Of a DNA stretch of 64,000 bases, positions 4,265 to 28,627 are shown piece by piece (the stretch's first letter is position 1; every line of letters begins with the position of its first letter). Below the pieces are notes generated by a model, which saw only the letters and a list, made by a program, of their open reading frames with translations, was not told the origin of the DNA and made no database searches. Source of the DNA: Anisus vortex (taxonomy: Eukaryota > Mollusca > Gastropoda > Planorbidae); the NCBI GenBank assembly GCA_949126835.1, contig OX421503.1:6349457-6413456 (forward strand). Direction: 5' to 3'. The position numbers were made by a program, and so were the translations under genes.

Positions 4265-4268
<4 letters not shown>

Positions 4269-4970: not shown

Positions 4971-5028
<58 letters not shown>
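4971..5028. repeat. (TA)n microsatellite
   Basis: A pure TA tract between the old solo LTR and the young element. It probably was, or supplied, the insertion target. Confidence 0.9.
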
Positions 5029-5032
<4 letters not shown>

Positions 5033-5703: not shown

Positions 5704-5714
5704 CGCCCCCACCC
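5704..5714 (-). other. Polypurine tract of family-1 copy 1
   Basis: On the minus strand a G-rich run (GGGTGGGGGCG) lies directly before the TGTCATG start of the 3' LTR. This is where plus-strand priming occurs in LTR elements. Copy 2 has the same tract after its LTR at 38848. Confidence 0.75.
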
Positions 5715-6945
5715 AATGAAAGAAATAATGTACCATAATTACCCAAGTAATACTCAACATGGTACATTTTTCGTACTTAACACTATCGTTTTAATAACCA
5801 ACAATCAATGGAAGATTATTAGACAATTTAAGCAAACATGGCTCACTGGCACAACTAAATTATAAAAAGTGTCACTACCCAATTGTAATTGTGATTATAA
5901 CGTGATGGACAAATATTTTACCGTTAGTATTAATATTAACTAATGTCTCAACAAGTACAAATAATTCAAAAATATTCTAGTCATTCTTATTTTAACTATG
6001 TACAGTTGTGTGGATTCCCACCAAAAATTTGCAAAAAGTTTTAATCTATTAAACAAATATAACATTGCTCAAACTCTTGTCAATTTCCAACAGTTTACTT
6101 CTAATATACAAACCAAAAGATAAGTAATACGTAACTCGAATCAAACTATAGGTTACTTCCCCTTTAAATTACAGTGTCAACTTGACATTAACAGGGTTCA
6201 TACCTAAGATGATGATACTTCCCCTTTTCTCAAATACGAGGAGAAAATACGCTCTAGTTACGATTACTACAGTAATCTCAATATTAAAATGTAATCCACT
6301 ATTATGCGTTTTTGGCAATTTTGAAAGTTTAATATAAAAGTTTGTTCAGGGTTGAATGAGTGCACACCTTTAGGTACCTTTGTTTCCCTCCGTTCCCGGA
6401 TATATGGAATATATAACAACCTATACAACATAGTGAATATCCACTAGTTTTTCCCATTCTATTACCATGATATAACAATTTAGCAATAGATTTCCAATAT
6501 TATCTATTAATTTATACCAATTAAGATTACATCTCTTTCTAAGATAAAAATTGTACATATTATTATTTAGTTCCATTCATTAACTAAAATAAAACAAGAT
6601 AATAAATCAACTAGCTCAAAGTTTTCCCACTTAATTGCATGTGATGACAATTACTTTTATCCATCCATATCAAGTAAATACGTGCATATTATATATTTAT
6701 TGCATCATGCATCAACATTTAAATGGAATTTCTTTTCCATAATCAAATGAATTTAAAATATATCAGAACATCAATATTATACATGATTATAAGAATTATT
6801 AATACTTTCAAAAGACTTGACTTCTGTATGATACAAGTATTCTATAGGTATTCCATAATCAAAATTCAAACGAATGATAGGTTATCATGACACATTCTTA
6901 ATGAATAAGTGAGATGATCTGAAAAAGAAGTATAGGGTTATTCAG
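5715..6945 (-). other. 3' non-coding region of family-1 copy 1
   Basis: About 1.2 kb between the coding stump and the 3' LTR. It is nearly identical to 38860-40090 in copy 2, and no envelope-like or other frame is visible in either copy. Confidence 0.7.
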
Positions 6946-7457
6946 TCAATCATGTAGCACCCGAGATAGAGTATCAGCTATGACCTTGTCTCTATCTTGT
7001 CGATGATACGGGGAATGGGATACCAGTCGGTCTTTGTCAAATTACTTAATTTCCCAAAGTCTCTATAAAACTGCAGTGTGTGGTCGGCTTTTGGTACCAT
7101 CACACAGGGTGTAGACCATTTGCTATCACATTTTTCTCCTATGTCATCTTCTAACATATACTTTACATCTAATTTAATATGCTCAGGTCTGATGGGGTCA
7201 AATGGATGCTGTTTAATAGACCTTGCACTATTGGTTAACACTACATCGTGCTCTATGACATGTGTCCTACTGGGAACATTTGTAAACATTGACTTATTTT
7301 CATGCACCAGCTCAATAATCTTCTCCTTATCTTCTACCGGAGGATGTTCTAGCCTTGTATCTAAACTCTTAAGGGCATCTGTATTATTAAGTTTACTTTC
7401 TGCTAACTTATATTCTATCCTAGATAAATCCGTCGGGACTCTAGCTAACGAAATCAT
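6946..7457 (-). pseudogene. RT N-terminal stump fused to RNase H tail, copy 1
   Basis: Frame 7457-6978 continues the polyprotein after a 1-base loss. It reads through the linker into the start of a Ty3/gypsy RT: a DPIRPEHIK segment, then KWSTPCVMVPKADHTLQFYR and WYPIPRIIDKI. The catalytic YxDD box and the rest of RT are missing. Right after the junction (about 6980) a different frame reads KVIADTLSRVLHD and a stop at 6946-6948, the typical end of a gypsy RNase H. An internal deletion has therefore joined the first part of RT to the last codons of RNase H, out of frame. Copy 2 carries the identical junction. Confidence 0.85.
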
Positions 7458-7498
7458 GGGGACCTCCCGTGGTTACTCTTTTCCCTGGAAACATAGGG

Positions 7499-10400
7499 CT
7501 AAAGTAAATTAATATGGCATACCCTCTGGTTTTGTCTCCGGTCAGGAGTCTTTATCAAATAATTGACCTCGCCAAGCTTTGACTCTATCTCATAGGGTCC
7601 ACTAAACTTTGCACTTAAAGGCTGATTTTGCAAAGGTAGAAACACAAGAACTTTGTCACCTGGTGCAAAAGTTCTAGCTGTAGCTTTACGGTCATAGTTA
7701 TGTCTCATACGCTCCTGCATCTGTGGAAAATGAATCTTCACATGGTTAAAAGCATGATAAAGCCTATTTTTAAATTTATCTACATATGACAAAAGTCCAA
7801 TCGGTTCACTGTCCGTTAGCCAAGTTTCATGTAGAAGTTTCAACGGACCTCTGACTGAGTGTCCATACACAAGTTCGAATGGGCTAAACCCCAGGGATTC
7901 CTGAGTGGCCTCCCTTGCAGCGAACAGTACATAAGGCACACCCTTATCCCAGTCTTTCTCGTTTTCATAACAGTACTTTTTAAGCATCGATTTTAATGTC
8001 TGATGAAACCTTTCCAGAGCTCCCTGGCTCTCAGGATGATAGGCACTTGATAGCCTATGGCTTATCCATAATTGTTCCATGACTTGTTTGAAAATGTTCG
8101 AAGTAAAGTTAGTCCCCTGGTCGGACTGTACTGTCTTCGGTAGGCCATAACGTGTGAAGAAATTTGTCAGGGCGTCTACCACCTTCACTGTTGTTATGTT
8201 CCGCAACGGAATGGCTTCCGGGAAGCGAGTGGATGAACACATGACTGTGAGCAGGTATTGAAAACCGGCTTTTGTTTTCGGCAACGGGCCCACGCAATCA
8301 ATGAGTATATGACTGAATGGTTCGTCGAACGCTGGTATCGGCTGGAGTGGAGCGACAGGAATTCGTTGGTTAGGACGTCCTACCATTTGGCATACGTGGC
8401 AAGTCTTGCAGTATTGTTCGACATCTCTTCTCAGTCCTGGCCAGTAGAAGTAAGGGAGGATACGGTGGTGCGTTTTCCGGACTCCCATGTGACCAGCGAA
8501 AGGAAGAATATGCGCCATACGCAGTATATCTTGACGATAGCACTTAGGTATTACAATCTGGTGAATACTGTCCCACTCGTTTGTACCTGAGTTGAGCGGT
8601 TTCGACTTTCTCATCAATACTTCATCTTTCATGTAGAAACATTCCGCCATTGCATCTGCAGTCTTTTCGTCAACAGCTTTCATTCTGAGTTGCATTATTA
8701 CTTCGTCATTCAATTGTTCTTTCACCAATTTCTGCTTTGGTGACAAAATGTTATCGTTCTCGGTTGCATCACCAGTTGTTAGTTCAGCAAAGAACGTAGC
8801 ACTTAAATCGATGTCAGGTGTTTCTGTTATCACTGTTTCATTCGCATGTGTGTCTTCAGAACAGACAAACACATCTTTCGTTGCACTACACGGCGTAGCA
8901 GGAGTCTTTACCGACTTCTTTTTCTGCATTGCTCTTGTCAGTGCACATGTTGGGCGTTCATTGGCAGGACGTAGGTTTTTGTCCTCCGCCATCTTTGTCT
9001 CCAACACTTTGACCATGGGCTCGACAGTGACTCTGCCGCCCATAATGTCATTTCCTAATATCATGGAAACGCCTTTGACGGGTAGTGCGCGCCACACTCC
9101 CACTACGATGTTACCTGTAAAAATATCCGACTCGAGTTTTATTCTGTGCAGTGGAGCTTCCACAGCCTCCATACTAGCACCTCTCAGCACAACAGACTCA
9201 CCGGTACTGGTGGCATCTGTTAACGGCACACTGCCCTCCAGGATCACGCTGACAGCAGAACCCGTGTCACGTAATATCTGTATTTTCTTCTTGCTGAGTA
9301 CATCGACTTCTGTCGACACTGTCCCCTCGTAGACAAAGGGTCGAAAATCGGATAGGTCGTCCTCTTCCGGGACTTCAGGAACCATCTGTTCCTCACGGCC
9401 TTCTGAAAGCATAATAGATTGAGTACAGCTATTCTCTTTTACCTTAGATAGACTGTTCTCAAAAACCATCGACTCCACAACTATGGGCGATGCCGGCCGC
9501 ATTTCTTTTGAGTTTCTTGACCCTGTGTTGCACACTTCTTCTGTCTGCTTGCTATCTTTCTGCACTCTGGCACAGTGTAGAATAGCACCTTGCTTCTTGG
9601 TAAGGATCCAACAATCTTTCTTCATGTGGCCCTCTTTCTTGCAATTGAAACATACCACCTTTGCTTTATTTACATCTGTCTGCTTCCTGAAATGAACTAA
9701 GTTACTATTATTATTTACACCACTGTTCTTATTATTGTTTTCACTTGTCTCTTTTGGTTTACTAGCCTCCTTGGGCTCTGGTTTGTGCACTTTGGGTTTG
9801 TCAGCATAATATGGCTTTATGCTGGCGTGAATTATGCCATAGTTATCTGCCAATCTAGCAGCTTCATGCACATCTTCAACCCCTCGGTCTGAGATGTGGG
9901 TTTTAATATCCACTCGAATACAATCATTGAATTCCTCAAACAATATTAGGTTCTTGAGTTTATCAAACTCACTTACATTCTGTGACCTTAGCCACTGTTC
10001 TAACATTTTCTCCTTTTGTCTCAAAAAGTCTACATGAGTTTGATCATATGCCTTCTTTCTGTCTCTAAATAGCTTTCTATATTTTTCTGGTGTCAGAAAA
10101 TAACTTTTTAGCACCCTATCTTTGATTACTTCATAGTCATTTATTTCCTCGGGTGTTAAACTCAACACTACGTCCAATGCTTTTCCTTTGTTGAGAGTTG
10201 ACCTTAACAATAAAGCCATCTTATCATCAGGGAACTGATAATCTACAGCTATCCTCTCAAAAAGCAAAAAGAAATCTTGAACATCTTCTTCTCTGAATAT
10301 AGGCAAGTGTTGCTTCATTGCGCTAATATCCATACCATTGCTGTCCCTACGATGGTCAGGTCTGTTCATGCGTGCCATCTCTATCCTTTCTCTGCTTTCA

Positions 10401-10828
10401 ATCCTAATTCTTTCATTTTCCCTTTCAGTTTCTATCCTAATTCTTTCATTTTCCCTTTCAGTTTCTATCCTAATTCTTTCCAATTCCATTCTCTTCATAG
10501 CTAATTGGAATTTTAGGTTTTCACTCAACCCTTCATCTTCATCATTGTTTGATGATCTAGATGACATATTTCTTACCTCGTCTCCGTGGGCAATTACCTC
10601 GCCCCCACTGGGAGCTACATAACCTTCATTGATATCGTTCTGTCCCACTTCAACTACACTACCAGTGTTCATGGCATTCTGCCCGTTCAAACATGTCATA
10701 ATTTCTTTGGTCAAACGATTTCGATTAGGTCTTGCCTGTCCTGCCTCAATCCCAAAGGACTCAGCTAATTCTTTTAGTTCAGCAAATGACATGGCATTAA
10801 GTTCCTCACTTGATATATTCGAAGCCAT
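7499..10828 (-). CDS. Gag-protease-integrase polyprotein, family-1 copy 1
   Basis: 1109 codons from ATG at 10828. Residues about 1-50 look like a SAP-type helix pair (LKELAESFGI). About 95-150 is an E/R-rich coiled coil with a 33-nt tandem repeat. About 170-330 is a capsid region whose second half resembles the SCAN fold. A zinc knuckle CFNCKKEGHMKKDC starts near residue 393. The aspartic protease DTG is at 521. The integrase zinc domain (His ~780 to CKTCHVC ~812) precedes core residues D844, D903 and E939, giving a 35-residue D-E gap. A GPYEI chromatin-side domain follows. The frame ends at a stop (7499-7501) where copy 2 has a lysine codon. A second lesion, one missing base near 7470, separates the RT stump. 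Plus-strand frames inside are shadows. Confidence 0.93.
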   Translation of the reverse strand: MASNISSEELNAMSFAELKELAESFGIEAGQARPNRNRLTKEIMTCLNGQNAMNTGSVVEVGQNDINEGYVAPSGGEVIAHGDEVRNMSSRSSNNDEDEGLSENLKFQLAMKRMELERIRIETERENERIRIETERENERIRIESRERIEMARMNRPDHRRDSNGMDISAMKQHLPIFREEDVQDFFLLFERIAVDYQFPDDKMALLLRSTLNKGKALDVVLSLTPEEINDYEVIKDRVLKSYFLTPEKYRKLFRDRKKAYDQTHVDFLRQKEKMLEQWLRSQNVSEFDKLKNLILFEEFNDCIRVDIKTHISDRGVEDVHEAARLADNYGIIHASIKPYYADKPKVHKPEPKEASKPKETSENNNKNSGVNNNSNLVHFRKQTDVNKAKVVCFNCKKEGHMKKDCWILTKKQGAILHCARVQKDSKQTEEVCNTGSRNSKEMRPASPIVVESMVFENSLSKVKENSCTQSIMLSEGREEQMVPEVPEEDDLSDFRPFVYEGTVSTEVDVLSKKKIQILRDTGSAVSVILEGSVPLTDATSTGESVVLRGASMEAVEAPLHRIKLESDIFTGNIVVGVWRALPVKGVSMILGNDIMGGRVTVEPMVKVLETKMAEDKNLRPANERPTCALTRAMQKKKSVKTPATPCSATKDVFVCSEDTHANETVITETPDIDLSATFFAELTTGDATENDNILSPKQKLVKEQLNDEVIMQLRMKAVDEKTADAMAECFYMKDEVLMRKSKPLNSGTNEWDSIHQIVIPKCYRQDILRMAHILPFAGHMGVRKTHHRILPYFYWPGLRRDVEQYCKTCHVCQMVGRPNQRIPVAPLQPIPAFDEPFSHILIDCVGPLPKTKAGFQYLLTVMCSSTRFPEAIPLRNITTVKVVDALTNFFTRYGLPKTVQSDQGTNFTSNIFKQVMEQLWISHRLSSAYHPESQGALERFHQTLKSMLKKYCYENEKDWDKGVPYVLFAAREATQESLGFSPFELVYGHSVRGPLKLLHETWLTDSEPIGLLSYVDKFKNRLYHAFNHVKIHFPQMQERMRHNYDRKATARTFAPGDKVLVFLPLQNQPLSAKFSGPYEIESKLGEVNYLIKTPDRRQNQRVCHINLL

Positions 10829-11847: not shown

Positions 11848-12529
11848 TATTTAATTTTGGGTGAACCTTTTAAACGTTAAATTTGCTTATTCTCAAAATG
11901 CGAAATGTATGACTTAAGGCCTTCTTCCAGGCAAGTATTAAATTTTACCAAGGGTCATAATTTTTTTTTCTAAATTTACTTAAAACTTTCTCCAAGTGTT
12001 GCCGTCAAATAAAATAATAAGTCTTTACTTATACAATAAATATTTAGTACAGTTACAAAAACAAATGTAGTAAGCATAAAAGCGTAGCTCTACTAATTGA
12101 TTTCAATGAAAAAAACAAAAACAAGTTCAAATCAAGAAACTAACTCAGAACTGCCACGTGGTACACGAGAATCCTAGCCGTTTGCATAGGAAATACACTG
12201 GAATGAAGCGATATCTAACAGGTAAAACAAAAGTTCACGTGTATTTAAATTAACAAAGGGAAATCGGATTTGACAATCTGCGTACTCTATAATGTAAAAT
12301 GTGTAAAGCATGATTATACAGTTTTCACATTGTATCTAGAATGGTATAGATGATCCGTCTATAATACTTTATTTAAGACTGATATATTTTTGTGTAGGGA
12401 ATTGTATCGATAATTAAAATGTATTTAGTTATTATGTCGTACACATTATTTCTATACATCAAATGTAGGTTATCTAAGTCCCTGCATATTTATAGTTCGC
12501 ATTTTGGTTACCTTAGTGTTATTTTCACA
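11846..12529. other. AT-rich stretch, nothing recognised
   Basis: No gene, RNA or repeat partner was seen. Confidence 0.4.
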
Positions 12530-12784
12530 AAACATTTAACAATAAGCTTACTCTTTTTTTTTTACAAAATCAATATCACCCGGTTCTTTACACTACACTG
12601 TATTAATTGGTATAATTTGTCTGTGCCCCCATACATTTTTTTTTCATTAAACTTAAGGAAAAAACACCTCGACAATATCAATAAAATTAGCATGCGAAAT
12701 GTTGACATCAAACCTCTATCTATGTATACGTAAGTGGTTTCTATGCAAATTAGTGTGCCCTAAATAACTGCGACCGCTGAATAA

Positions 12785-13010
12785 AGATATCTGACACTAA
12801 ACAATGTCAGTCAACTATGACTCTAGACTCGTCACTCTGAATATAGACCTGGTCAGTCAACTGTGACCATAGACTTTGTGATATCAAATTTGGCACTAGT
12901 CATTGCCATTAAAATCTGAATTTAGACATTGTCAATAAACTCTGACTCTAGATATTTTCAGTCAAATCTGAAAGTAGACATTGTCAATTAAAACTCACTC
13001 TGGGCATTGG
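12785..13010 (+). repeat. Degenerate ~30-bp minisatellite upstream of gene A
   Basis: Repeats of CTAGACATTGTCAGTCAA followed by CTCTGA, six to seven diverged units. The same unit array lies at 60310-60495 upstream of gene B. Confidence 0.65.
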
Positions 13011-13084
13011 CAAACTTTTTAGTTTTAGTCCCATTATACTAAATATATAAATAAGATGTATCTATTTTGGATTTTGTAAAATAG

Positions 13085-13190
13085 ACAGGACCGTTCAGGA
13101 TAGGCAAAAGTGGAGAAAGTTGACTGCCGATGGTTCTATTCGCTCCCCCCAAACCCAACAACCACAACGGACGGTCATGGGATTGATGAT
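13085..13190 (+). repeat. LINE C-terminal tail fragment
   Basis: It translates as DRQKWRKLTADGS and a short proline/glutamine-rich tail ending in ATGATG-type repeats. This is the terminal signature of LINEs whose last residues read DRxxWRxL. It is a short 5'-truncated piece related to the kind at 62885-63350. Confidence 0.5.
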
Positions 13191-14173
13191 GGTGAAATAG
13201 ACAGACTCCTGAGTTAAACCTAAAATGCGGGAATATTAGTCCGCAATTATTTATTTTTATGTACACTTTGCAAATGTATCGGCCTATCAATGAGTTATCG
13301 TATGAGTTTTCTGAACATTTTTTTTTTACCAACATATATTTTTTATTATGTATATATTCTGAATGGTCAATACTTTATCTAAAATTCATTTCAAAGTCTT
13401 TCAACTTAAATAAAAAAAATAATAACGTTGAATCACACTGTGTGTGTGTGTTTTTTTTTTCGCCATTAAATTTAGAATTCGACTGAAAACGCCGCTCTAA
13501 ATTGTCTTAGAAATCCGCGTGCAAAAAATCTCTAAAAGCACTAATGATGTAACCTGGAGAGGTGGCCATTTTAGTTTAAATATTGGGTTCCTACAGTAAT
13601 TATTTACAATAAATTTATTGAAAGGAGCATAACGATGACGTATATTATAACATTTTAACTAGAAATGTTTCACTGGCTTTAAACTGTATGCACACATACC
13701 TCGTTAACATTTAACTCTTCATGTTATACTCTGATTTACTAGTCAAATGGACATATACATTTTCAAAAAAAAACCTTGTTGAAATATTGTCCTAAGTTTG
13801 AAAAACTATTTATTTAGAGCTGAAATAACTGATAATCAACAGCATATACTTTTCTGAAAAACTTCACGCTAAAAATCGTTGGCATTATGTCTTAAAAGTT
13901 GGTGTCTATTTTTTTAATGTATAACTTACACAATTTCTAAAATTATTAAATGGTGTTAGCTCCCTCTTTGGCCAAAACGACAAATTGTTTCGATATTTAT
14001 TATAATCGCAAACATTCTTGAAATAATATTGGACTAAACATGGCAACATCTTGGTTGAGTTAAAAAATAAAACAGATGTCTGAATGAAACGTTTGATCGT
14101 AATATATGCTTAGATATTTTCTGAAGTGCACTTGAATAAACGTTACTGCAAATAGAATTTCGGTCGTAAAGTG

Positions 14174-14181
14174 TATATAAG
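14174..14181 (+). promoter_or_regulatory. TATA box of peptide gene A
   Basis: TATATAAG, at equivalent positions in gene C (27810) and gene B (62048). About 60-140 bp upstream all three share AACAGATGTCTGAAT and a GTTTGATC block, probably upstream elements. Start of transcription is expected near 14205. Confidence 0.7.
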
Positions 14182-14204
14182 AAGACCAATTTAAAGATAC
14201 TATG

Positions 14205-14248
14205 TACAACGTACACAAGTGTATATTTCCCAATTACAACTGTGTCAG
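14205..14248 (+). other. Non-coding leader exon of gene A, GC donor
   Basis: Inferred first exon. It ends GTGTCAG followed by GCAAGT, which is the consensus for a GC-AG intron (G|GCAAGT). The same end is present in gene C at 27882. No ATG-led frame is present. The 5' edge is a guess from the TATA position. Confidence 0.55.
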
Positions 14249-15185
14249 GCAAGTATTCGTTTGCTTTTTGCATTTGTGTGGACATTTCTGTTGAATGAAT
14301 TTTGTTAATTGCTTTTTGCTTGACCAATAAACATTTTTATTTTATTTTATGTTTTCATGTATAGGACTTTGAGTTTAACTTTAGTTTCTGACTTGTGATT
14401 GCTTCTTCAGTAATTATTTTATTTTATCACACATGAAAACGTCTAACAGAATAATAAAACTTCATTGCAGCATATGTCTTACATCCATTTATATTCATCA
14501 CATCAATAAACGAAAAATACATATTTCCAATTAATGAATAGTGTTCATAATATTATGCTCCAAGTCCACCTTCATGTTTATACAATAATTCTGATACACC
14601 TTGTTTGCTCAAGACCTTAAAGTTAACTGGCAAATAACTATTCATTATCGCGTGATCAATCTCTCTTTCAAAAAGCGAGATTCTCGTGGAAATCGAGAAT
14701 AAAATCTAACATCGCATTTTCTACAAAATTAATTACGCATGAGAAACAAATGATTGATAGACAATCAGAGAAGCAAAGATAAGAAAACTCGTGCTTCTTA
14801 ATATTTAATTTGATAGTATTGGTCATTCCCCTTAGACCACATATTGTTTGAAGACATTATCCATTCAACTATCCTTCTGCTACAATAGCAGCTAATCAAT
14901 TTTATTATGATATTATTGTATTGAGGAATTTTAGTTCAATTTAAATTCTTCCTTAATTTTTTTTCAATCGTTCGAGCAAAACAGTTTATACAAAATATTT
15001 GAAGCATAATTTCATAGTTTACAAGAGCGCGTTAGGAAACATCTTTAAGGTTACCCTAAGACATAGAAAGACATTAAAATTTATATATATATGTATATTT
15101 AAGCCAGTAGGCCATTATATGTATATATATATTAACCGAAAGGTGTTTTGTTCGTCTTGCTACAGAATAATTCAAATTGAACATC

Positions 15186-15281
15186 ATGAAGGCTTTAGTC
15201 TTAGCAACGATCGTGGTTGTATTGATCTCAGCGATGTCCCCTGCTACGGCTTGGTACAGGAAACCAAAACAAATCGGTCCA
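15186..15281 (+). CDS. Secreted-peptide gene A, signal-peptide exon
   Basis: Exon 15166-15281 follows a good acceptor (TTCGTCTTGCTACAG) and starts coding at ATG 15186. The 32 codons encode a basic start (MKAL), a hydrophobic core (VLATIVVVLISA) and a likely signal-peptidase site after SPATA. Then comes a short basic segment WYRKPKQIGP, before a donor GTATGT in phase 0. Gene B has the same exon with identical length (62326-62421), and both start their introns with the same run ending TTCACATTTCTAAA. The product is expected to be a small secreted precursor. A 1.55-kb LINE and (TA)n lie in the next intron. The family is not recognised. Confidence 0.75.
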
Positions 15282-15507
15282 GTATGTTCACATTTCTAAA
15301 AATTGAAACGAAAAGTGCATATTTTACTTAAACCTATAATGCTTTTTATAAGTTAATGATTAAAACAAATATGTATGTACAAAATATTCACGTTTCATTA
15401 ACTGACCTAACAAACGTTTCCTTAGTTTGGTCAATGAATTCAAGCCAGATATATGTGTGTATATATATATATGTATCATTATCTGTCCTTTGGGTTTTAT
15501 GTGGAAC

Positions 15508-17060
15508 ATAAAAGCAAACAAAGTTTCTGGTACAGATGACATACCAGCAAGACTGCTTAAAGAACTAACCAATGAAATATCTCCAATCTTTAAAATATTT
15601 TTTCAAGCCTCTCTAAACCAGAGCAAAGTGCCCAGAGATTGGAAATTAGCTAATGTAACCCCCCTTTTCAAAAAAGGAGATAAATCTGACCCCGGTAATT
15701 ATAGACCTGATTCTCTAACCCGCCTAACATGTAAATTACTTGAATATATAATATATAGTAGTATAGTAAATCATCTAGACAAACTTAATGCACTGTGCCC
15801 ACACCAACATGGCTTCAGGAAAAATAGATCATGTGAAACTCAATTAATAGGCTTAATAGATGACTTGTCTAAGGGATTAGATAATAACAACCAAATTGAT
15901 GCTATATTACTAGATTTTTCAAAAGCATTTGATAAAGTTCATCATTCTAGTCTACTAAAAAAAACTTAAATATTCTGGCATCTCTGGCCCCTTACATCAG
16001 TGGATTCAGGACTTTCTTATAGGCAGAGAACAAACAGTGATAATAAATGGCTCTAAGTCATCACCAATAACTGTAAACTCGGGAGTTCCACAAGGAACTG
16101 TTCTAGGACCCCTACTATTTCTAATTTATATTAATGATCTGCCAAATTGCATCAACACAGGAACAAAAGTAAGATTATTTGCCGATGATTGCATAATTTA
16201 TAGAATAATAAAGACAGGAAAAGATAGTGAACTTCTACAAAAAGACCTAGATGAACTACAAAAATGGGAATCAAACTGGAGTATGTCTTTTCACCCAGAA
16301 AAATGCCAACTAATAAGGGTATCCAAGAAAAAGAAACAAATAATGGCAAACTACTTCATTCATGGTAAAGAACTAACTCAAACTAGCAATGCTAAGTATC
16401 TAGGAGTAATAATAAATGATAGGTTATCTTGGAACCCTCATATTGATGAAGTAATTAAAAAATCAAACAAAACATTAGGATTCATAAAAAGGAACTTTTA
16501 CAAATGTAATAAGAACATAAAACTAAAATGCTATCTCACATTAGTTAGGCCTATACTAGAATATGCAGCACCTGTATGGGACCCATCAACTAAAGAAAAC
16601 ATTAAAAAATTAGAACAAATTCAAAAAAGAGCTGCGAGGTTCATAACTAGTGAATATTCCCAATTAACAAGAGTAACACTATTAGTCAAATCATTAAAAC
16701 TAGAAACACTAGAAGACAGAAGGGCAAAGAGTAAAGTAGTAATAATACATAAGGCATTAAAATCTAATTTAGAAATACAACACAATGACAACCTGTTGCA
16801 AAGCTCAGATAAACATAAAGACAAAAACACTTTCCTTGTCCCTTATGCGAGAACAATAGGAATATAAGTATTCTTTCTTCCCGAGTGGCATTCGGGCATG
16901 GAATAGGTTGCCTGAACAAACCAGGAAAACCAGTAACTTAACATCATTTAAAACATTAATAAAATGCAAGACTAGACTCGGACCACGGATGAGCGTAAGA
17001 AGCAATAACTTCTTTATAGAAGCAGCGTCTGTAATGTATAAGATAAGACAAGAGCCTCTG
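15508..17060 (+). mobile_element. 5'-truncated jockey/CR1-like LINE, broken RT
   Basis: Three consecutive frames join into the C-terminal two thirds of a non-LTR reverse transcriptase. Frame 1 starts about 15508 (KVSGTDDIPARLLKEL, GNYRPDSLT, LDFSKAFDKVHH). Frame 2 starts about 15966 (NSGVPQGTVLGPLLF, FADD at 16178-16189, YLGVIINDRLSWNPHI). Frame 3 starts about 16860 (FFPSGIRAWNRLPEQ). Single-base lesions in an A run near 15960 and near 16860 separate them. The endonuclease half is missing, so it is a dead 5'-truncated copy. It ends with GTATAAGATAAG. Tails of the same family are at 2268, 26945 and 32325. It lies in intron 2 of gene A, same strand. Confidence 0.88.
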
Positions 17061-17141
17061 TCAAAGTACGCCTCCACGTATTCTTACGATTCAATTCAAT
17101 CCTTCCCAGCTCTTAGCTCTTTTCAGTTCTTCAAGTCGCAT

Positions 17142-17214
17142 CCATATATATATATATATATATCATATATATATATATATTTATATATATATATATATAT
17201 ATATATTTATTTAT
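17142..17214. repeat. Imperfect (TA)n microsatellite
   Basis: TA repeats with few interruptions, just after the LINE. Confidence 0.85.
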
Positions 17215-17397
17215 TTATACATATTTTTATATATACTATATATAAGCTTATATTGAAATTTAACTGTTATGCTTTAATAAATAAAACGGTGTCAATTAAA
17301 TGTTTGCATCGATATGTTCATATCATTATATGAACAACATTGTTTTCTAACTAGCGTAAACCATATCAAGTTGTAATGTCTGAAATAGGGATGTTAA

Positions 17398-17460
17398 AAC
17401 CGGTTTGTTTTCAAAACCGGTTTTCGCTTCTATAAAACCGGTTTAAAACCGAATTTCGAT
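17398..17460. repeat. Cluster of AACCGGTT palindromes
   Basis: Three AAACCGGTTT/AAAACCGGTTTT copies in about 60 bp, preceded by GGGATGTTAAAACCGG and followed by a C20 run. This resembles the subterminal arrays of some hAT transposons, but no transposase or second end was found. Confidence 0.4.
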
Positions 17461-17929
17461 TACCCCCCCCCCCCCCCCCCGCAATGTCACAAGTCACAGG
17501 CCGGAAAATAGACAAATGAGCTTATTTTTGTAGGTGTATTTGAAAAATATTTCAAACTTAATAAGTGTTTATGATTTTGTACACTTTACCATAACATTCT
17601 TTAGAAATAAAAAAAAATATGGGCTAATTGATTAAAACCGATAATAGCTTTCAATAGTGATAATTTGTGCACCGTGGACTTATAACCTTTATACAATACT
17701 TTTTTTTAACTAACAATTTTTACAATACCCAAATATCACCCATCTGATAGCCTTCTAGTGCTGAAGCATCCATAATGGTTATTCCAAACATCATTTTGAT
17801 CATTATAAAGAGGCTAACATAGTTTCCACAATTAGTTAACAACAGTTCATAAACTTACTTTTTTTCTTTTACTCACGAACTAGTTGTGATGATATTAAAA
17901 ACATTTTATTATGTTTTCCTTTTTTTTAG

Positions 17930-17965
17930 CGTGATGATGGATTGATAGACGTCGATGCTGATACG
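17930..17965 (+). CDS. Gene A acidic repeat exon 1
   Basis: 36 bp between a TTTTTTTTAG acceptor and a GGTACA donor, phase 0 on both sides. It encodes RDDGLIDVDADT, net charge about -4. It lacks the two codons (Ala-Ile) present in the later units. It joins the signal exon in frame. Confidence 0.65.
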
Positions 17966-18012
17966 GTACATATTAATTCTTTACTTACATTACATATTGT
18001 GTTATGTTTAAA

Positions 18013-18185
18013 GATAAGAAGATAAGATAAGATTGCTTTATTGATCCAAATGAATGGAAAATTGACTTGATTACATAAATTCCGTCTTTCAGCATACCTA
18101 AAACAATATTAAAGAACCATTTGTACTCAAACACAATAGACATTCACGCACACTATCATACCATTTATCATACAAGAAAAAAGTA
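18013..18185 (-). repeat. LINE/SINE 3' tail inserted in the exon array
   Basis: It reads ATAAGATAAGATTGCTTTATTGATCC on the plus strand in two adjoining blocks. It is the reverse complement of 24190-24425, sharing TTTGTACTAAAGCAC-type, ATCATTT and AATAAAG blocks. It sits between repeat exons 1 and 2 and explains their longer spacing. Confidence 0.6.
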
Positions 18186-18336
18186 GGCCTATTAAAACAA
18201 CTATATATATATATTTATACATATATATGTATATATATATGATATAATCTAAACGTATAATGAATATTTTGTTTTCTTTTAATCACTGGCTAGTTACTGT
18301 TATATTAAGGTAACTTAGTTGTGTTTTCTTATTTAG

Positions 18337-18378
18337 CGAAATGCAATTGGTGAATTGGAAGACATTGATATTGACACG
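18337..18378 (+). CDS. Gene A acidic repeat exon 2
   Basis: 42 bp, phase 0, acceptor TTATTTAG, donor GGTAAAT. It encodes RNAIGELEDIDIDT, net charge about -4. It is the most acidic intact unit. Confidence 0.65.
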
Positions 18379-18599
18379 GTAAATTTTAATTCTTTACATA
18401 CAATAAAGATTTTGTTATGTTTAAACCATTACATATGTATATATATATATATATATATAAATAATATATAGAATGCCACAATAGTTTCTACAAGTAGTTG
18501 GCAAAAATTTCTAAAACAAATTATTAATTTTTTTTTTCATTTAATCAATAAATAGTAGTAGATATATTCATAACATTTATTTATGTTTTCTTTTTTAAG

Positions 18600-18644
18600 C
18601 GAAACGCAATTGATGGATTGGTAGTCGTCGATCTTGAAATTTAA
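18600..18644 (+). pseudogene. Gene A repeat exon 3, donor lost
   Basis: The acceptor and twelve to fourteen codons are preserved (RNAIDGLVVVDLEI), but the ACGGTAA donor reads ATTTAAA. If used, this exon would run straight into a stop (18642-18644). It is either a dead unit or a rarely used terminal exon. Confidence 0.6.
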
Positions 18645-18699
18645 ATTTTAATTTTCTACATTCATGACATATTTTGTTATATTGAAATCAACTATATAT

Positions 18700-18703
<4 letters not shown>

Positions 18704-18736
<33 letters not shown>
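18704..18736. repeat. (GA)n microsatellite
   Basis: About 16 GA units replace the TA tract found at this position in the other array units. Confidence 0.9.
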
Positions 18737-18739
<3 letters not shown>

Positions 18740-18859
18740 ACAAATCAGTTTCTACAAGTAGTTGGCAACAATGTCGTATCGAAAAATCTATTTTTTTTTC
18801 TTTTAAATACTAACTGGTTGTTGTTTTAATAACATTAAATTATGCTATTTTTTTTTAAG

Positions 18860-18901
18860 CGTAACGCAATTGATGGATTAGTAGATGTCGACGTTGTAAC
18901 G
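18860..18901 (+). CDS. Gene A acidic repeat exon 4
   Basis: 42 bp with intact acceptor (TTTTTTAAG) and donor (GGTAAAA), phase 0. It encodes RNAIDGLVDVDVVT. It looks closest to a consensus of the array. Confidence 0.65.
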
Positions 18902-19141
18902 GTAAAATTTAATTCTTACCATACATTACATATTTTGCTATGTTTAAAACAACTACCTATAATATATGTATATATAGTAGTATCGTAGTATATATATATA
19001 TATAAGGCCATATTGAAGGCCAAAATAGTTTCTACAAGTAGTTGACAACAATGTCTTAACGGATAATCAACTTTTTTTTCTTCTAATCACGAACTAGTTT
19101 TTGTTTATTAATAACATTTATTTATGTTTTCTTTTTTTAAG

Positions 19142-19183
19142 CGCAACCCAATTGATGGATTGATAGACGTCGATGCTGTCCCA
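19142..19183 (+). pseudogene. Gene A repeat exon 5, donor lost
   Basis: It encodes RNPIDGLIDVDAVP after a good acceptor, but the donor GT is AT (CCAATAAAT in place of ACGGTAAAT). The open frame running on from it enters a LINE insertion at about 19239 and is not meaningful. Confidence 0.6.
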
Positions 19184-19238
19184 ATAAATTGTAATTCTCA
19201 ACATACATTACATATTTTGTTATGTTTAAAACAACTAT

Positions 19239-19490
19239 CCATCCATCCCTATGGCGCTACAGCCCATGTAGGGCTTTGGCCTGCTCCACCACCTCCTTCC
19301 ATTCGGGCCTATCTCGGGCCTTCCTTCGCCAAGCCCGCACACCAAGATTTAGTAGATCTGACTCTACAGCCTCGAGCCCTCTTTGTCGTGGTCTGCCCCT
19401 AAGCCTCTTTCCTCTTGGTCTCTGGTGATGTACTGTTCTGGCTGCTCTGCCATCTGTCATTCTTTCAACGTGTCCTGCCCACCTCATATA
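19239..19490 (-). mobile_element. 5'-truncated LINE fragment, C-terminal tail
   Basis: Minus-strand frame from 19487 reads RWAGHVERM, RGRPRQRGLEAVESDL and RRKARDRPEWKEVVEQA. This is the arginine-rich end of a LINE RT protein. Its 3' end has CCAT repeats (19240-19250). It is a short dead copy. Confidence 0.7.
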
Positions 19491-19658
19491 TTATATACAT
19501 ATGTAAACTAACCCATAAAAACAAAGTTTTTATTATTCTCCCTTTCTTTGTAAATTAAGTTTATATTTAATTTATGTTTTGATAGATTAAAATAAATATA
19601 AGTGATATCATACCTTACGAATTTCAACACTAAAATTTTAAGCATATTTTTTTTCTAG

Positions 19659-19999
19659 CTTTGGCCTGCAAAAAACATAAAAAGATAACTCGCTTTGTTT
19701 CGGCTATATTTATTGTGTCGTTTTCATTCTATTTATTTCGTAAAAAGGAACATATCCGAAAAGTTTCTTTACTTCCGTCTCTTCCGGTAGAAGCAGACAT
19801 GTTTTACGTAAACTGTTGTTTCATTCGCAAATTGGTCGAAGGTATTAAAGGCTATGATGCTGAAAATTTGATAAAATGTATTGTTAGTCGGGACAAGTCT
19901 GCTGCCCAAGTTTCGGCTCGATTGGACGACGGGAAGTGGTCGAAAAATCATGCAAAGTTTTCCAAGCAAGCAACAGAAATAGAAGACAGTACGATTTAA
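19659..19999 (+). CDS. Unrecognised open frame, possible exon
   Basis: An uninterrupted frame of about 112 codons begins right after a good acceptor (TTTTTTTTCTAG at 19647-19658) and ends with TAA at 19997. It has no ATG until 19799, so it would be read only as a spliced exon, entered in phase 1. It shows a basic start (ACKKHKKITR), a hydrophobic stretch (FVSAIFIVSFSFYLF), a CC pair (FYVNCCFIRKLVEG) and a third cysteine site (LIKCIVSRDKS). Gene A exons end in phase 0. Entered that way, this exon would add only LWPAKNIKR before a stop. No family is recognised. It could be a retrocopy fragment, an unrelated exon, or chance. Confidence 0.3.
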
Positions 20000-20439
20000 T
20001 GGAAAGGGAGTCATAAATATGTATTGAATCAAACACAATTTTCTTTCTATTCTATATTATTTGCTTCTGTGCACAAGTAAAACTTATTAGTAAACTTACA
20101 AAGGTTTTCCTAGTCAACCCAATATCTGAACGTATAATTAAATAATTAAGGGTCAAAAGATTCCTTCCTTTGTTTATAAGCTTGGTCTATTTACACAAAG
20201 TTACTATTATTCTACTTTGGTAAACATTGTTATCGTACTTTAAGACATAAACTGCTGTTAGAAATGTTTAGTTATTCCCCACGCAATAAAAAAAAGTCTA
20301 ACATAATATAATGATATAAAAAATATCCTTTTTCACATCCTAAAAATAATTGTGAACTATTAATTAGGTTTATTTACTGTTTTTTATTATAAGTGCTAAT
20401 TTGCAAAATGGCCTTTGTTATTATAGTGTTTGATCGTTG

Positions 20440-21300
20440 TCTTCTTCTTCTTCGCCATTATCAACTCCTAGTGGAGCATAGGCCATCAACAATCTCTTTC
20501 CATGTCCTCCTGTCTCTGGTTCTCTTCTCTAACTCCTTCCAAGTTCTCCCGATCACCTGCACATCCTTTGCTACTTCCGGCCGCCAGGTGTTCTTTGGTC
20601 TACCTCTTCGTCTTGCACCCTGGGGATTCCACGAAAGAGCTTGTCTAGTACAAGTTTTCGTTGGTTTCCTCAATGTGTGGCCTATCCATCTCCATCTCCT
20701 TTTTTGTATTTCTTGTTCTACTGGAATATGTGCTGTCCTTTCCCATACAGTTGCATTTGTAATTTTGTTATACCATTTGATATCCATTATTCTACGTAGA
20801 CAGTCATTCACAAAAGTTTGTAGTTTGTTTAAATCCCCCTTTGTTAATCTCCAACTTTCCGAGCCATACAGTAAGACAGATTTTACGTTGGAATTGAAGA
20901 TTCTTAATTTAGTTTTGGTTCTAATTTGTTTTGTTTTCCAGATATTTTTTAGCATAGCAAAGGCTCCTCTTGCTTTTTGTATTTTTACTTTAATATCTGT
21001 TCCAGATCCCCCTTCCTTGTCAACTATACTTCCTAGATTTGTGAAGTTGTCTACTTCTTCCAGCATCCTTCCTCCTACTTCCACTGCATCAGTACTTTTG
21101 GAGTTTATTCTCATTATCTTGAACTTTCTATCATTTATTTTAAGTCCTAGCTGTTGTGCCTATAAATCTAGTATTGCAGTTTTTTCTTGCATTTGCTTCT
21201 GACTTTGAGCTAATAGGGCTCTGTCATCTGCAAAGTCTAGATCTTCAAGCTGTTTAAACAGGGTCCATTGGATTCCATTTTTTTCTGTTTTCTGTAGTAT
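20440..21300 (-). mobile_element. 5'-truncated RTE-like LINE
   Basis: Minus-strand reading starts with LDFADDRALLAQSQKQMQ (the RT YxDD region, about 21235) and is stopped once near 21161. It then has an open frame of 217 codons from 21114: NLGSIVDKEGGSGTDIKVK, KARGAFAMLKNIWK, LLYGSESW and RRRGRPKNTW. It ends in a GAAGAAGAAG tail at about 20445-20455. These are the usual C-terminal hallmarks of RTE/BovB-type LINEs. It interrupts the last intron of gene A. Confidence 0.85.
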
Positions 21301-21552
21301 CGTTAATCGTTGTCAATATCGTTTAATTATGAACCTTTTCTGATTTTTTTGATTTTTTTATTTTTTGATTTTTTTTAATTTTAATGTTTTTTGAAGTTAA
21401 TAAGTCAACTTTTTTTTTTACTGAAATAATGTTTAATGACATTTTGTTTCTCTATACACAATATATTTTATTGTGTTACAAACTTAACTTCTTTGCAACA
21501 ATGTCAATGTTGGTTTAACTTGATTGGCAATCGATTTTCCTTTTTTTTACAG

Positions 21553-21630
21553 AATCTGCTGAGTAAAGAAAAGCTATTGATGACGACAAATAACTTTAAG
21601 AAATCGTTGTTGAAATCAATCAAGTTCTAA
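21553..21630 (+). CDS. Gene A last exon, lysine-rich tail
   Basis: After a strong acceptor (TTTTTTTTACAG, ending 21552) a phase-0 frame of 25 codons ends with TAA at 21628-21630. It starts NLLSKEKLL and ends NNFKKSLLKSIKF. With six lysines and one glutamate it is strongly basic, and the second half could fold as an amphipathic helix. This contrasts with the acidic middle exons. A poly(A) signal follows 61 bp later. Phase and context fit it as the final coding exon of gene A. The order signal, acidic repeats, basic tail is the layout of many host-defence and venom peptide precursors. No homologue is recognised and no transcript evidence is available. Confidence 0.6.
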   Translation, partial: NLLSKEKLLMTTNNFKKSLLKSIKF

Positions 21631-21691
21631 AGAAGTGTGGTCATTTATTTAAGATTACATAGTCGATATTTTTAATTATTCTTAACGATCA

Positions 21692-21697
21692 AATAAA
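21692..21697 (+). terminator. Poly(A) signal of gene A
   Basis: AATAAA 61 bp after the stop of the lysine-rich exon, with T/A-rich DNA downstream. Confidence 0.55.
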
Positions 21698-24425: not shown

Positions 24426-25950
24426 TAATTCTAAAATTATATTTATTAACTTATTTAAACAAAATATATATTATGTTATGTTATTCTATTGTGTTTTTTT
24501 TATAGTAAAGCAAATATTTGAAGACGTAGATCAATATTATTTACTTAAAAAGATGTAAAGCCCATGATCACTAAAGAACAAAACACGTTTACTATGCTCA
24601 TATCAGTGTTTGTTTTTAAAAAGAAACCAATCTAATAATAGTTAAAATTGAATTTATATTGCATTTGTGAGATAACCGATGACTTATGTTTTAAGGTCTG
24701 CAATACATACCCAAAGTGTAAAATAAGCAAACACTAACTAGTAGAAAAAAAACTAAAATCAAAAACCTTAATATAATATAATGAAATTTCATGATTGTTG
24801 TTCAATAAGTATACACACAAATATGCAGGGAAATAACGCACTAAACACAATTTTGAGAAAAACGCGCAATTCTTACAAACATTGCTTTAAAATATTTTTA
24901 TTTGAATAGCTAATTTCTAATAATGTAATAATATTTTTTTCCACATTCAGGTAATGTTAACCTGTTTATTGATATATTCTATTAATGTTATTTAAAATAT
25001 GGTAAAAAACATTTACTTGATGAATCGATATATTATAACAATTTCACATTTAATTGCATATTGAATTATATCAGCCACATAGATCCGAAAATATTTAAGA
25101 GATAAAGAAAAGAAATAAACAAAAACCATATTTTTATAACATTTAGGAAAAACAAATTAGTAGCTGCCCTATCTTAAATAGTGAAATAGTAATACAGTAG
25201 AAATATAGTAATACACTATTTTTAGTATAGACATGTCACTATGTTTTACAGACAACGATCAATAATTCTTGACCAAAGGTCATACGTGGTTGCACAAATA
25301 AATAATTATACATTTATTTGGCGTTAAAAACAATATTTTCTAATATTTTTTTTTTATAGCAGAAAGCTTAGTTTGAGTCAAAACATTTAAATAAAAAAAA
25401 AATAGTATCACAATACATGTCTAAATATGTTTTAGCAGTAGAAATAAACGAACAAGTACACACAAGATTTATGCACTAAATACATTTAAACAGTTCACAT
25501 TTTAAAACAAAATGTTATATGTAATTTAAGTTCTCCTTGTTTTTCTAAAATGTTTTTAACTCTGGCATTTTTTACACAACTCAAATAACCCAGTTTTAAG
25601 CACAACATGTATTTTTATCATTCAGCTGTGGCCCACATACAATTTTTTTCATTTTTTAACATGTGGGTACGAAATGGAACATGCTCAATATCACACAGCA
25701 AAGACAATCTTTTAAGATCATACTAACATTAACGTCAAACTTCTCCTATTATAGATTAGCTATTAGGCCTACGTAGCTATGCTATTCAGTACATAAGGTT
25801 CATTGTGTATGACAGTGGTTCCCAAATCGTCGTTATGGTAGAACGTATTGAGCTCTGTGACACTTAGACAAATTTCTTTAGATAGTCATTCTCCGTAGTT
25901 GTGTTATTGAATATGGTATGCATGCAATGTGAATTAATAGTTTTATCAAT
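24426..25950. other. AT-rich stretch, nothing firm
   Basis: No gene is seen. A CAGTGGTTCCCAAATCG word at 25813 resembles a hAT terminal repeat but has no partner. Confidence 0.4.
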
Positions 25951-26653
25951 TGTCATATATATTGTTTTTCCAAGAATTGGAACACGCAATGTTTATTCTT
26001 CTTCCCCCTCTTTTTCTCATTAAAACAGGATTTTGTGGGCGGGGCTTAGGCTTCCGATTGCCTGACGTTTAGTGGGAAGACAAATGATTCTACTTAATGT
26101 TGGGATTCTGTGTTGATCTCAAATTTTCAGGGTCTGGGAACGACTCATTATTTAATAGGGGAAGTTCCTATCGTTTTGTTATGAGTTTTGTAATGATGCC
26201 ATGATTTTCACCCCTACTGGTAATGGGTCTGTCCCTTGCACCACTCGGATGGTATTTAATGATTTGTTTTGTCTGAAAGACAGAGAGTTTCAAAATATGT
26301 TCCTTTGAGAACGTTTGTGTTTGCACTATTTTATTTTAACTCTACATAATAGATATATTGTATATATTGAACATATCACCTGAATTAAACTATCAACAAC
26401 AGTTACACTGAAGCTTCCTTGTCAAGTTACTATTCTATTGTGTTGTATACATTACTATAAGATTTATCTACTACTCTAATGTCCAAGAAAGGAAATGTTG
26501 GAACACAAATACTGAGTTTGTGCCCAGGACTATAAGAAGAGTTCGTGTAATACTGAAACATAAATAATAATAATTAAAGTCTCCCCTAGGACTAACGAGA
26601 ATTATCAGCAAGATCTACACATTTCTGGCCACAAGGGGATTGTGGACGTAACA
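25951..26653 (+). repeat. Solo LTR, family 1, with 4-bp target duplication
   Basis: 703 bp, plus orientation, starting TGTCATATATATTG and ending GGACGTAACA. It is flanked by CAAT on both sides (25947-25950 and 26654-26657), a 4-bp target duplication. It is diverged from the young LTRs and has a small insertion near 26020. It is the only family-1 LTR here with a resolvable target site, and it shows that insertion does not require (TA)n. Confidence 0.88.
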
Positions 26654-27249: not shown

Positions 27250-27890
27250 GATACATTTTTCCAACTATTCAAGCTATACATGTTTTTTTTATATATAGAA
27301 AAAGAATCGTTTCTATAGACTTAGTATTCAAGTTTGGGAAAAAAGCTGTACACATTTGAGCATTCGGTTTAAAAAATAAAATAATAACTGTTAAGTGTCT
27401 GAATAACTTATTAGTTAAACTTGTAAGAGCAAGGATTTTACAGAAATTTAACAACATTATCTTTCTAAAATCTTCATTGCTTAAAAAGTTCGCATTCCGC
27501 CCTTCCAAATGTATATCTATATCTGTTATTGCCTTTGTTAACATATAATACAATAATAGTAAATTATTATGCTGTTCCCTGTTTCGGCTATAATGGCACA
27601 TTCTTGTAGGTTAGATGTGTTTCTTGTTACAGCTTTTACACATATTGCTGGACAAAAATACACAATGAGTTAGATGAGAAACAGATGTCTGAATATTTAT
27701 AAATATATTTTATTAAGATATAAGTGAACAGAACGTTTGATCTAAATACTTGCGCAGGAAAATTTCTGAGAAGCCCTTGAATACATGTTGGATCAAACAT
27801 GGTAAAATGTATATAAGCCAATTATGACGATCTTATAACCAATTATTTCCAAGCCTTTATTTCGGAATTGAAACTGTATCAGGCAAGTAT
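27250..27890 (+). repeat. Third copy of the peptide-gene promoter block
   Basis: Aligns in order with 61550-62130 and with the gene A promoter: AGACTTAGTATT, AACAGATGTCTGAAT, GAACGTTTGATC, TATATAAG, and the leader end. It drives gene C. Confidence 0.7.
27810..27817 (+). promoter_or_regulatory. TATA box of peptide gene C
   Basis: TATATAAG in the same context as gene A (14174). The leader exon would run from about 27840 to 27882 and end at a GC donor (CAG|GCAAGT). Confidence 0.65.
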
Positions 27891-28441
27891 AATTTTAATA
27901 ATGTTTATGCTTTAATAACATATATGTTGACTGTTTCTATTATAATAGCTTTGCAGCGTTGTTTAAATAATTAGCCTTCCTAGGATTTCAGCAACAAAGA
28001 CACACAATCAGAAAATGGTAGTTTATGAAAACAATGATTACTAAAAAAATATTTGGTGCGAACTTTTTCCATTTGTTTGAGTTATTGAGTAGTTTAGAAA
28101 TACCTCTTTTGGCATGTTGTCACCATTGATATACTGGCTCGTGCAAAAATCGCCCGTTATGGTTATTCAACTTAGACATAAATGTCTATTAACTAAAGGA
28201 ATATGAGCCAAAACTGTATATATATATATATAGTGTCCTGTCAGAGAAATTGATCCATATGACCGATGAAGCGTAACTCATCGATATCGTTGGCTACGGA
28301 ATAGTAGGGGATTGTTTGTACAGAGCATATATAATAATCAATTACTTAAAGATCAATAACTGAATGATGTTAAATAAAACAATCGCAGTGTCAAACAAAA
28401 AGTTGTTATGTTTTTATTTTCTACAGAAGAATAAAAAGAAA

Positions 28442-28627
28442 ATGAACACAGTTTCAGTGGTTATTTCGGTTTTATTCATCTTGGCCATTAGTTCTGAAGA
28501 GCTGACAGTGAAGGGAACGCCATCGAATAAATCGGAACAAAAAGTAACAGATTTCATAATAAATTCATCAAATCTGCGGTGGAGACGATTTCGTCTTACG
28601 GACCTTATTGGTAGTGTGGCAAGTTAG
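28442..28627 (+). CDS. Secreted-peptide gene C, 61-residue precursor
   Basis: The exon starts after a good acceptor (TTTTATTTTCTACAG, ending 28426) 15 bp before ATG 28442. An upstream in-frame ATG at 28364 lies in the intron by this model. The product has a signal peptide (MNTVSVVISVLFILAISS), a short acidic-to-neutral spacer (EELTVKGTPSNK, SEQKVTDFII), and a basic aromatic segment NLRWRRFRL before DLIGSVAS and TAG. GTAAGT directly follows the stop, so a 3'-UTR intron is possible. The promoter and leader match genes A and B, but the coding exon does not, suggesting the family swaps its coding part. Function is unknown; a small secreted basic peptide is the best description. Confidence 0.6.
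   Translation: MNTVSVVISVLFILAISSEELTVKGTPSNKSEQKVTDFIINSSNLRWRRFRLTDLIGSVAS

Follow-up and report, generated by a model that had tools for sequence, protein, structure and literature searches.

Micro-exon genes (MEGs) of schistosomes and tapeworms encode a signal followed by short exons divisible by three that lie in long introns, and they occur in clusters grown by duplication, in which the mature part changes faster than the signal and retroelements lie nearby (PMC10526429, PMC7653826, PMC4350168). In the parts of these papers on which we draw, a MEG is defined operationally by at least seven exons, at least half of them shorter than 70 nt and divisible by three (PMC7653826), and the schistosome MEG proteins carry a post-signal motif of FL..F and then W-polar-basic (PMC10526429). 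The myticalins of mussels, as the cited sections describe them, start with an exon 1 that contains only leader, carry an intron immediately ahead of the ATG and have a precursor ordered as signal, cationic peptide and anionic extension, and they too are found in clusters with pseudogenes (PMC5577615, PMC12294457). A third system, the bicycle effector genes of aphids, is portrayed in the portion of the literature used here as fast-evolving, with N-terminal signals and many small exons of the same phase (PMC9168663). Here we analyzed a 64-kb stretch of the genome of the planorbid snail Anisus vortex (the window, to which all counts and searches below refer) that contains a candidate secreted-peptide gene, gene A, predicted to join a signal exon to a tandem array of acidic mini-exons and a lysine-rich last exon. 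By analogy, gene A works in part like all three systems. It shares with MEGs the signal followed by short exons divisible by three within long introns, and its cluster shares with theirs the growth by duplication, the apparently faster change of the mature part and the neighboring retroelements. With the myticalins it shares a leader-only exon 1 and an intron before the ATG (both predicted here), a conserved signal, a variable cysteine-free mature part, a charge-split precursor and broken copies within a gene cluster, and with the bicycle genes fast evolution, an N-terminal signal and small exons of one phase. The explanation that we favor, with confidence that is about evenly balanced, is that gene A is one member of a small cluster of related secreted-peptide genes that have a common 5' module and divergent mature parts, and that in gene A the array and the basic tail are spliced onto this module.

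The 5' module of gene A and its copies

The following features make up the 5' part of gene A (UTR, untranslated region):

14010-14173, plus strand: promoter block of gene A, with copies at B, C and D; a profile of A and B matches C and D
14174-14248, plus strand: leader exon 1 of gene A, predicted to be non-coding, with TATATAAG at 14174; ends at the GC donor AG/GCAAGTAT, with the intron from 14249
15166-15281, plus strand: exon 2 of gene A, with a CTACAG acceptor upstream, a 20-nt 5'UTR, the ATG at 15186 and the signal peptide, followed by GTATGT

The coding part of exon 2 (15186-15281) comprises 32 codons (MKALVLATIVVVLISAMSPATA-WYRKPKQIGP) and ends in phase 0 at GTATGT, so that the signal-peptide exon proposed by the first-pass annotation was recovered on re-reading. 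The segment that follows the signal, WYRKPKQIGP, is basic, with a charge of +3 in 10 residues. Comparing the gene with the window by blast, we detected its 5' part a second time, at 62 kb, with promoter-leader block, acceptor, 5'UTR and signal exon:

61886-62143, plus strand: promoter-leader block of gene B, with TATATAAG at 62048; the leader donor is lost (AGACAATT)
62326-62421, plus strand: signal exon of gene B (MRALVVSMIVVVVISAMSSANVDVDRSPVVDK), followed by GTAAGT; 32 codons and phase as in A

The promoter-leader blocks of A and B are 80% identical over 259 columns, and a second block, which starts late in the leader intron and reaches across most signal codons, is 83% identical over 133 columns (both by blast). 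Homologous pieces are collinear between 12390-15300 (A) and 59921-62440 (B); the four main pieces, one of which contains a minisatellite, add up to approximately 1.6 kb of alignment columns, and the leader intron aligns poorly. This supports the view that A and B go back to the duplication of a single segment, 2.9 kb long in A. Identity is 82% in the promoter (132/161) and 82% in the TATA plus leader (61/74), compared with 64% in 12390-13340 (562/882) and 69% in 13755-14009 (176/255), which shows the 5' module to be held tighter than its neighborhood. The values of 45% for 13341-13754 (186/414) and for the leader intron (146/322) probably reflect sequences that are not truly aligned, and the global A-B alignment did not bridge the leader intron, with all of these identities excluding 15116-15301. 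Within the duplicated segment, both A (12896-12993) and B (60316-60491) are preceded by a 26-bp minisatellite. We also observed that the gene B leader, with its lost GC donor (62078-62325), contains no ATG in 248 nt versus 3.1 expected (P = 0.04), B being one of three unspliced leaders tested, of which A and C have no clear lack.

Beyond the promoter, the signal codons of A and B differ modestly (proportion of nonsynonymous differences, pN, 0.17; proportion of synonymous differences, pS, 0.26), whereas the ten codons that follow the signal have no residue in common (pN 0.74 and pS 0.07 over 30 nt, ungapped alignment). Third positions are kept in 9 of the 11 codons after the signal (P = 0.002); these counts were entered by hand for a region chosen after looking, in an ungapped 33-nt alignment in which codons 23-32 provide about 6 synonymous sites, and we treat the figure as a hint only. 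These numbers hint at fast change after the signal between A and B and are not proof of positive selection.

Two further copies of the promoter-leader block were detected:

27629-27903, plus strand: promoter-leader block of gene C, with TATATAAG at 27810 and the donor word AG/GCAAGTAT
28442-28543, plus strand: signal-like exon of gene C (MNTVSVVISVLFILAISSEELTVKGTPSNKSEQK), with CTACAG upstream and GTAACA after it; the frame is open to a stop at 28625
35805-36041, minus strand: copy D of the promoter-leader block, with the donor word kept and no TATATAAG

The profile of A and B matched C with 54.4 bits (E = 3.6e-16; 27637-27890) and D, on the minus strand, with 31.8 bits (E = 2.9e-9; 36028-35809); in the controls it scored at most 9.1 bits over 20 Markov shuffles and at most 4.3 bits with the window reversed. 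The wider limits of 27629-27903 and 36041-35805 come from a profile to which C and D had been added, and scores from that profile are raised by construction. The remaining five block pairs (A-C, A-D, B-C, B-D and C-D) were all significant, with E from 1e-5 (B-C, the weakest) to 9e-21. While TATATAAG is present in A (14174), B (62048) and C (27810) and absent from D, the donor word AG/GCAAGTAT closes the leaders of A, C and D (three of four) and has been lost in B. The leader-end word AGGCAAGTAT, a strong GC-type donor, occurs four times in the window on both strands, in these three leaders and at 11929; the latter had no supporting alignment and is not claimed as a family member. From the promoter copies and the common donor word, the leader is predicted to be an exon of gene A, and a 5'UTR-only exon 1 with an intron before the ATG is predicted from sequence alone in both A and C (GC donor word and CTACAG acceptor). 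Judged by their copies, the signal exon and promoter block of gene A are more than chance.

The signal exons also stand out in a scan for hydrophobic ATG starts on both strands, which returned 52 starts, and in a stricter version that returned 28, with A, B and C found by both. A phase-0 donor passing the filter followed 6 of the 52, and an acceptor-like site preceded 9 of the 28. Only four of the 52 combined a mean hydropathy of at least 3.4 with an acceptor-like site, namely A, B, C and 51433 on the minus strand (inside a retroelement region), and among these a phase-0 donor passing the filter was present in A and B. Both GTATGT (A) and GTAAGT (B) fit the donor consensus. In gene C, GTAACA is a donor below filter strength, and the frame runs on for 27 codons, including RWRRFR; its 5'UTR and first codons resemble those of A (E = 5e-5) and B (E = 0.001). 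No signal exon was found for D by comparison with A and B or in the hydrophobic-ATG scan. The signal-like start at 31480 on the minus strand was rejected as D's second exon, its donor being in another phase and the start itself lying at a distance of 4.3 kb; this stretch (31480-31392, minus strand; MVALICLVLFTVLQGGLAIDQIDQLISYL, then GTAAGT in the other phase) may belong to some other secreted gene or to the leader of a retroelement. A family had been proposed by the first-pass annotation from gene A, and the case for it is stronger than was stated there, with three further promoter-leader copies in the window, two of them with signal exons. In A, B and C, the promoter block and leader lie upstream of a signal-like exon, a step that the sequence supports, and the leader would be spliced to that exon.

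The mini-exon array and the candidate last exon

Downstream of the signal exon, gene A contains the following features:

17930-17965, plus strand: array mini-exon 1 (RDDGLIDVDADT), acceptor and donor both there
18337-18378, plus strand: array mini-exon 2 (RNAIGELEDIDIDT), acceptor and donor both there
18600-18644, plus strand: array copy 3, donor lost; TAA after 14 codons (codon 15)
18860-18901, plus strand: array mini-exon 4 (RNAIDGLVDVDVVT), acceptor and donor both there
19142-19183, plus strand: array copy 5 (RNPIDGLIDVDAVP), donor GT changed to AT; the frame continues for 86 codons
21553-21630, plus strand: candidate terminal exon (NLLSKEKLLMTTNNFKKSLLKSIKF, stop), joint-best of 141 acceptors by pyrimidine count; AATAAA at 21692

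The five tandem units lie approximately 260-410 bp apart, each with a 36- or 42-bp open segment beginning with CGN (Arg), and their alignment extends over exon and intron alike. The units arose by true tandem duplication, and as a repeat the array exceeds chance. Searching the window with a profile of the five copies brought up no further copy above threshold. The first-pass annotation had read the array as five tandem exons of 36-42 bp, all in phase 0 and each beginning with Arg. Its core is real, and the family with a conserved 5' module is wider than it noted, but the array was overcounted: all five units and their CGN starts are present, with both splice sites in only three (17930, 18337 and 18860), and its own list of junctions (15281/17930, 17965/18337, 18378/18860 and 18901/21553) already omits the copies at 18600 and 19142. 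The common phase and Arg start follow from tandem duplication and therefore amount to one observation, not five. As for its suggestion that length varies by exon duplication or skipping, the copy number of the mini-exon unit has been changed by duplication, and skipping found no support. Two of the five copies have a charge of -4 and the other three of -2; a charge of -3 or lower arises in 1.3% of random open 14-codon frames, and two of the five reach that level.

Among the 141 acceptor candidates on the plus strand between 15.3 and 22.4 kb, those at 21553, 19142 and 17930 rank at the top with 13 of 14 pyrimidines, followed within the array by 18860 and 18600 (12) and 18337 (11), although the scores of the array copies are not independent of each other. 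A phase-0 donor lies within 18-90 nt in 9 of the 40 acceptor candidates listed, and three of the nine are the array exons. The phase-0 terminal frame and its AATAAA, both noted in the first reading, are present. Stop codons and AATAAA are easy to find in AT-rich DNA, and the region 18.9-22.4 kb offers 13 candidate terminal frames, of which four fall inside a piece of a long interspersed nuclear element (LINE) at 20.46-21.16 kb; others, such as the one at 22229 with 24 codons, may serve as an alternative last exon.

The spliced model (signal, three mini-exons and tail) gives a precursor of 97 residues without cysteine, in which an acidic repeat of 40 residues (net charge -10) precedes a tail of 25 residues (+5), and basic pairs occur only at residues 25 and 88. 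The peptide probably has little fold. The signal exon, the three acidic mini-exons and the lysine-rich last exon would together yield a secreted cysteine-free precursor. Until cleavage or dilution outside the cell, the acidic repeat would most likely keep the basic ends of the peptide masked or apart. Duplication of the exon-plus-intron unit would have changed the length of the repeat, with copies dropping out on donor loss.

Comparison with described gene families

Conotoxin-like peptides have a cysteine framework in the mature part, which the gene A model, with its 0 cysteines in 97 residues, does not. Compared with MEGs as characterized in the cited sections, gene A has three spliceable mini-exons rather than a run of four or more, with two other copies that have no donor, and in gene A the mini-exons derive from a single 36-42 bp unit repeated in tandem. 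The gene A model comprises six exons (leader, signal, three mini-exons and last), one fewer than the MEG definition asks for, and short exons account for 3 of the 6 (36, 42 and 42 nt; all predicted from sequence). The W-polar-basic element has a counterpart in WYR, but by eye no Phe lies ahead of it in the precursor. The bicycle genes, in the account drawn on here, are of phase 2, have about 17 exons on average and carry CYC motifs (PMC9168663), in contrast to the phase 0, six modelled exons and absence of cysteine in gene A. Defining features of MEGs and of myticalins that we tested are absent from gene A, and it differs from the bicycle genes in the ways just named; it is not filed as a member of these three families.

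The myticalin likeness raises the question of which end of the precursor would be active. Read in the myticalin order, the active cationic peptide would be the N-terminal WYRKPKQIGP, the acidic repeats a C-terminal extension and the basic tail incidental. We think this very improbable, even though the predicted layout and gene organization resemble those published, as far as the cited sections go (PMC5577615, PMC12294457), and the gene A N-terminus is indeed basic. The Lys-Arg site that separates cationic and anionic parts in myticalins has no equivalent at the basic/acidic border of gene A, the segment of B that corresponds to the basic N-terminus is acidic (NVDVDRSPVVDK), which argues against a basic N-terminus as a family rule, and the intron is of phase 0, not of phase 1 as the second intron of myticalins. 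In addition, the gene A signal does not resemble the published myticalin consensus by eye, and its acidic part comes from tandem mini-exons. Charge masking by an acidic pro-region ahead of a basic tail, the layout of the first-pass annotation, seems likelier than a myticalin-like layout.

Homology searches

For the modelled gene A precursor, sequence searches returned four candidates, none at E of 1 or lower, and the open frame of gene C returned zero; the sets searched included no mollusc proteome or transcriptome and not the genome of origin. As a control of the databases, the LINE reverse transcriptase gave 7253 relatives among 7978 scored candidates, with an identity of 81% for the top-scoring one and close to 50% for most of the 120 listed; the relatives found are those of repeats, and the control therefore says little about genes of this organism. 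Against Pfam, the gene A model gave nothing above cut-off, the only hit being T4_Spackle at 13.4 bits (cut-off 27; residues 1-28), and the gene B signal exon gave zero matches. We found no matches in PDB or in Rfam, and a search of the literature text for four peptide words returned zero, a weak null given that peptide letters seldom stand in running text. The expectation of a likely secreted-peptide gene without recognizable relatives was hence borne out within the sequence sets, Pfam, PDB and text searched; lacking mollusc sets and the source genome among these, "undescribed" means not found in the places searched.

Alternative explanations

Several observations weigh against a spliced gene A within a living family. 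The exon joins are predictions from genomic sequence. Within the array, two of the five copies have no donor, and the donors of the three remaining copies fit 3 or 4 of the 6 scored positions. Pairwise identity among the five copies is 75% in the exon (294/392) versus 72% upstream (562/777) and 74% downstream (475/645), and the three spliceable copies alone give 72%, 68% and 74%, respectively. The pN/pS ratio is 0.59 (interval 0.24-1.43) when all five copies are used and 0.49 (interval 0.15-1.52) for the spliceable three alone, and all five copies staying open has a probability of 0.29-0.56 under neutral change at 20-10% divergence. In these short sequences, constraint on the predicted coding exons is indistinguishable from neutral change. 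The high rank of the acceptors is partly circular because the exons were probably picked by their acceptors in the first reading, and the array profile found no copies above threshold near B, C or D in the window. Of 48 comparable frames in the window, 7 carry a net charge of at least +5, as the tail does, and so do 6% of random frames of the same composition; together with the amphipathic moment the figures are 2 of 48 and 1.5%, and the basic tail exceeds chance weakly to moderately.

The same array data bear on the possibility that the array is a non-coding tandem repeat and that exon 2 of gene A by itself encodes a short secreted peptide with VCSHF at its end (VSSHF in B), with the apparent donor being coding sequence. 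The identity between A and B does extend past the signal exon, where 18 of 20 nt also match, and fades only at the in-frame TAA (V-C/S-S-H-F-stop), just beyond the donor, as would also fit an unspliced short peptide; the array exons are as diverged as their flanks, and two copies have no donor. We nevertheless regard this as unlikely, as the single donor difference between A and B (GTATGT versus GTAAGT) preserves the consensus fit, the array acceptors are among the best of the region, and the homology may simply stop at a duplication or insertion break.

Other objections concern the copies. In its signal codons, C resembles A and B weakly, and a wider comparison recovers the promoter block only, so that the place of C in the family rests more on that block. 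The four promoter-leader blocks may also be parts of a repeat element. With B lacking the leader donor and D lacking a TATA box, parts of the cluster may be dead. On this basis, the cluster could largely be a relic, in which duplicated secreted-peptide genes decay one by one and the array is a remnant; D has neither TATATAAG nor a detectable signal exon, array copies 3 and 5 have no donors, and retroelement DNA lies in the gene A introns and between the copies. We doubt this explanation, since A and C retain TATATAAG, the GC donor, the acceptor and an open signal-like exon, and the promoter copies differ less than most of the duplicated segment around them. The ATG-free unspliced leader of B also looks as if it had become exonic and were still in use, a lack that is not clear in A and C.

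It is conceivable, though improbable in our view, that promoter, leader and signal exon form a secretion cassette that is duplicated as a block, with homology ending just after the signal exon, that settles next to unrelated DNA and that recruits downstream splice sites and frames as new secreted peptides; the acidic mini-exon array of A would then be recruited and multiplied non-coding AT-rich DNA. If so, the family would be a place to watch the birth of secreted peptides step by step. For the clustered family with a shared 5' module that we favor, secretion, clustering and fast change point to a rapidly changing, outside-facing function as the likeliest role, and the data choose none among defense, mucus and reproduction. 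If expressed, these genes would represent a cysteine-free secreted-peptide family that protein searches miss and that is recognizable by its promoter and GC-donor leader, and the leader profile offers a handle for listing members genome-wide. Alongside MEGs and bicycle genes, they would also show how a secreted protein is altered as tiny exons multiply and decay.

Retroelements and other repeats

Of three LINE insertions that had been noted in the introns of gene A, two have Pfam support, one at 15.4-16.9 kb (RVT_1, split over two frames) and one on the minus strand at 20.46-21.16 kb (DUF6451); the third is a putative piece at about 19.24-19.49 kb. The last intron of gene A also holds an open frame of 121 codons (19634-19999) that has no Pfam match. 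Elsewhere in the window, a gypsy-type long terminal repeat (LTR) retrotransposon occurs twice (4999-10402 and 38144-43548; 98% identical over 5.4 kb), both copies with zinc-knuckle and integrase domains in minus-strand frames; the two look young because each pair of approximately 680-bp LTRs is 99% identical. LTR-like copies at 25949-26653 (minus strand, about 94%) and 4215-4863 (about 83%) are probably solo LTRs, either of this element or of one related to it. A second gypsy-type element on the minus strand (54257-57196) has an integrase zinc-binding match and a SCAN match below cut-off, and a related fragment at 51146-51378 is 81% identical to it. Finally, we observed a tandem repeat with a 48-bp unit (45303-45845, 11.4 copies) and a sequence of 464 bp that is found twice (52563-53026 and 59273-59735) with 99.6% identity, suggesting a recent insertion or duplication.

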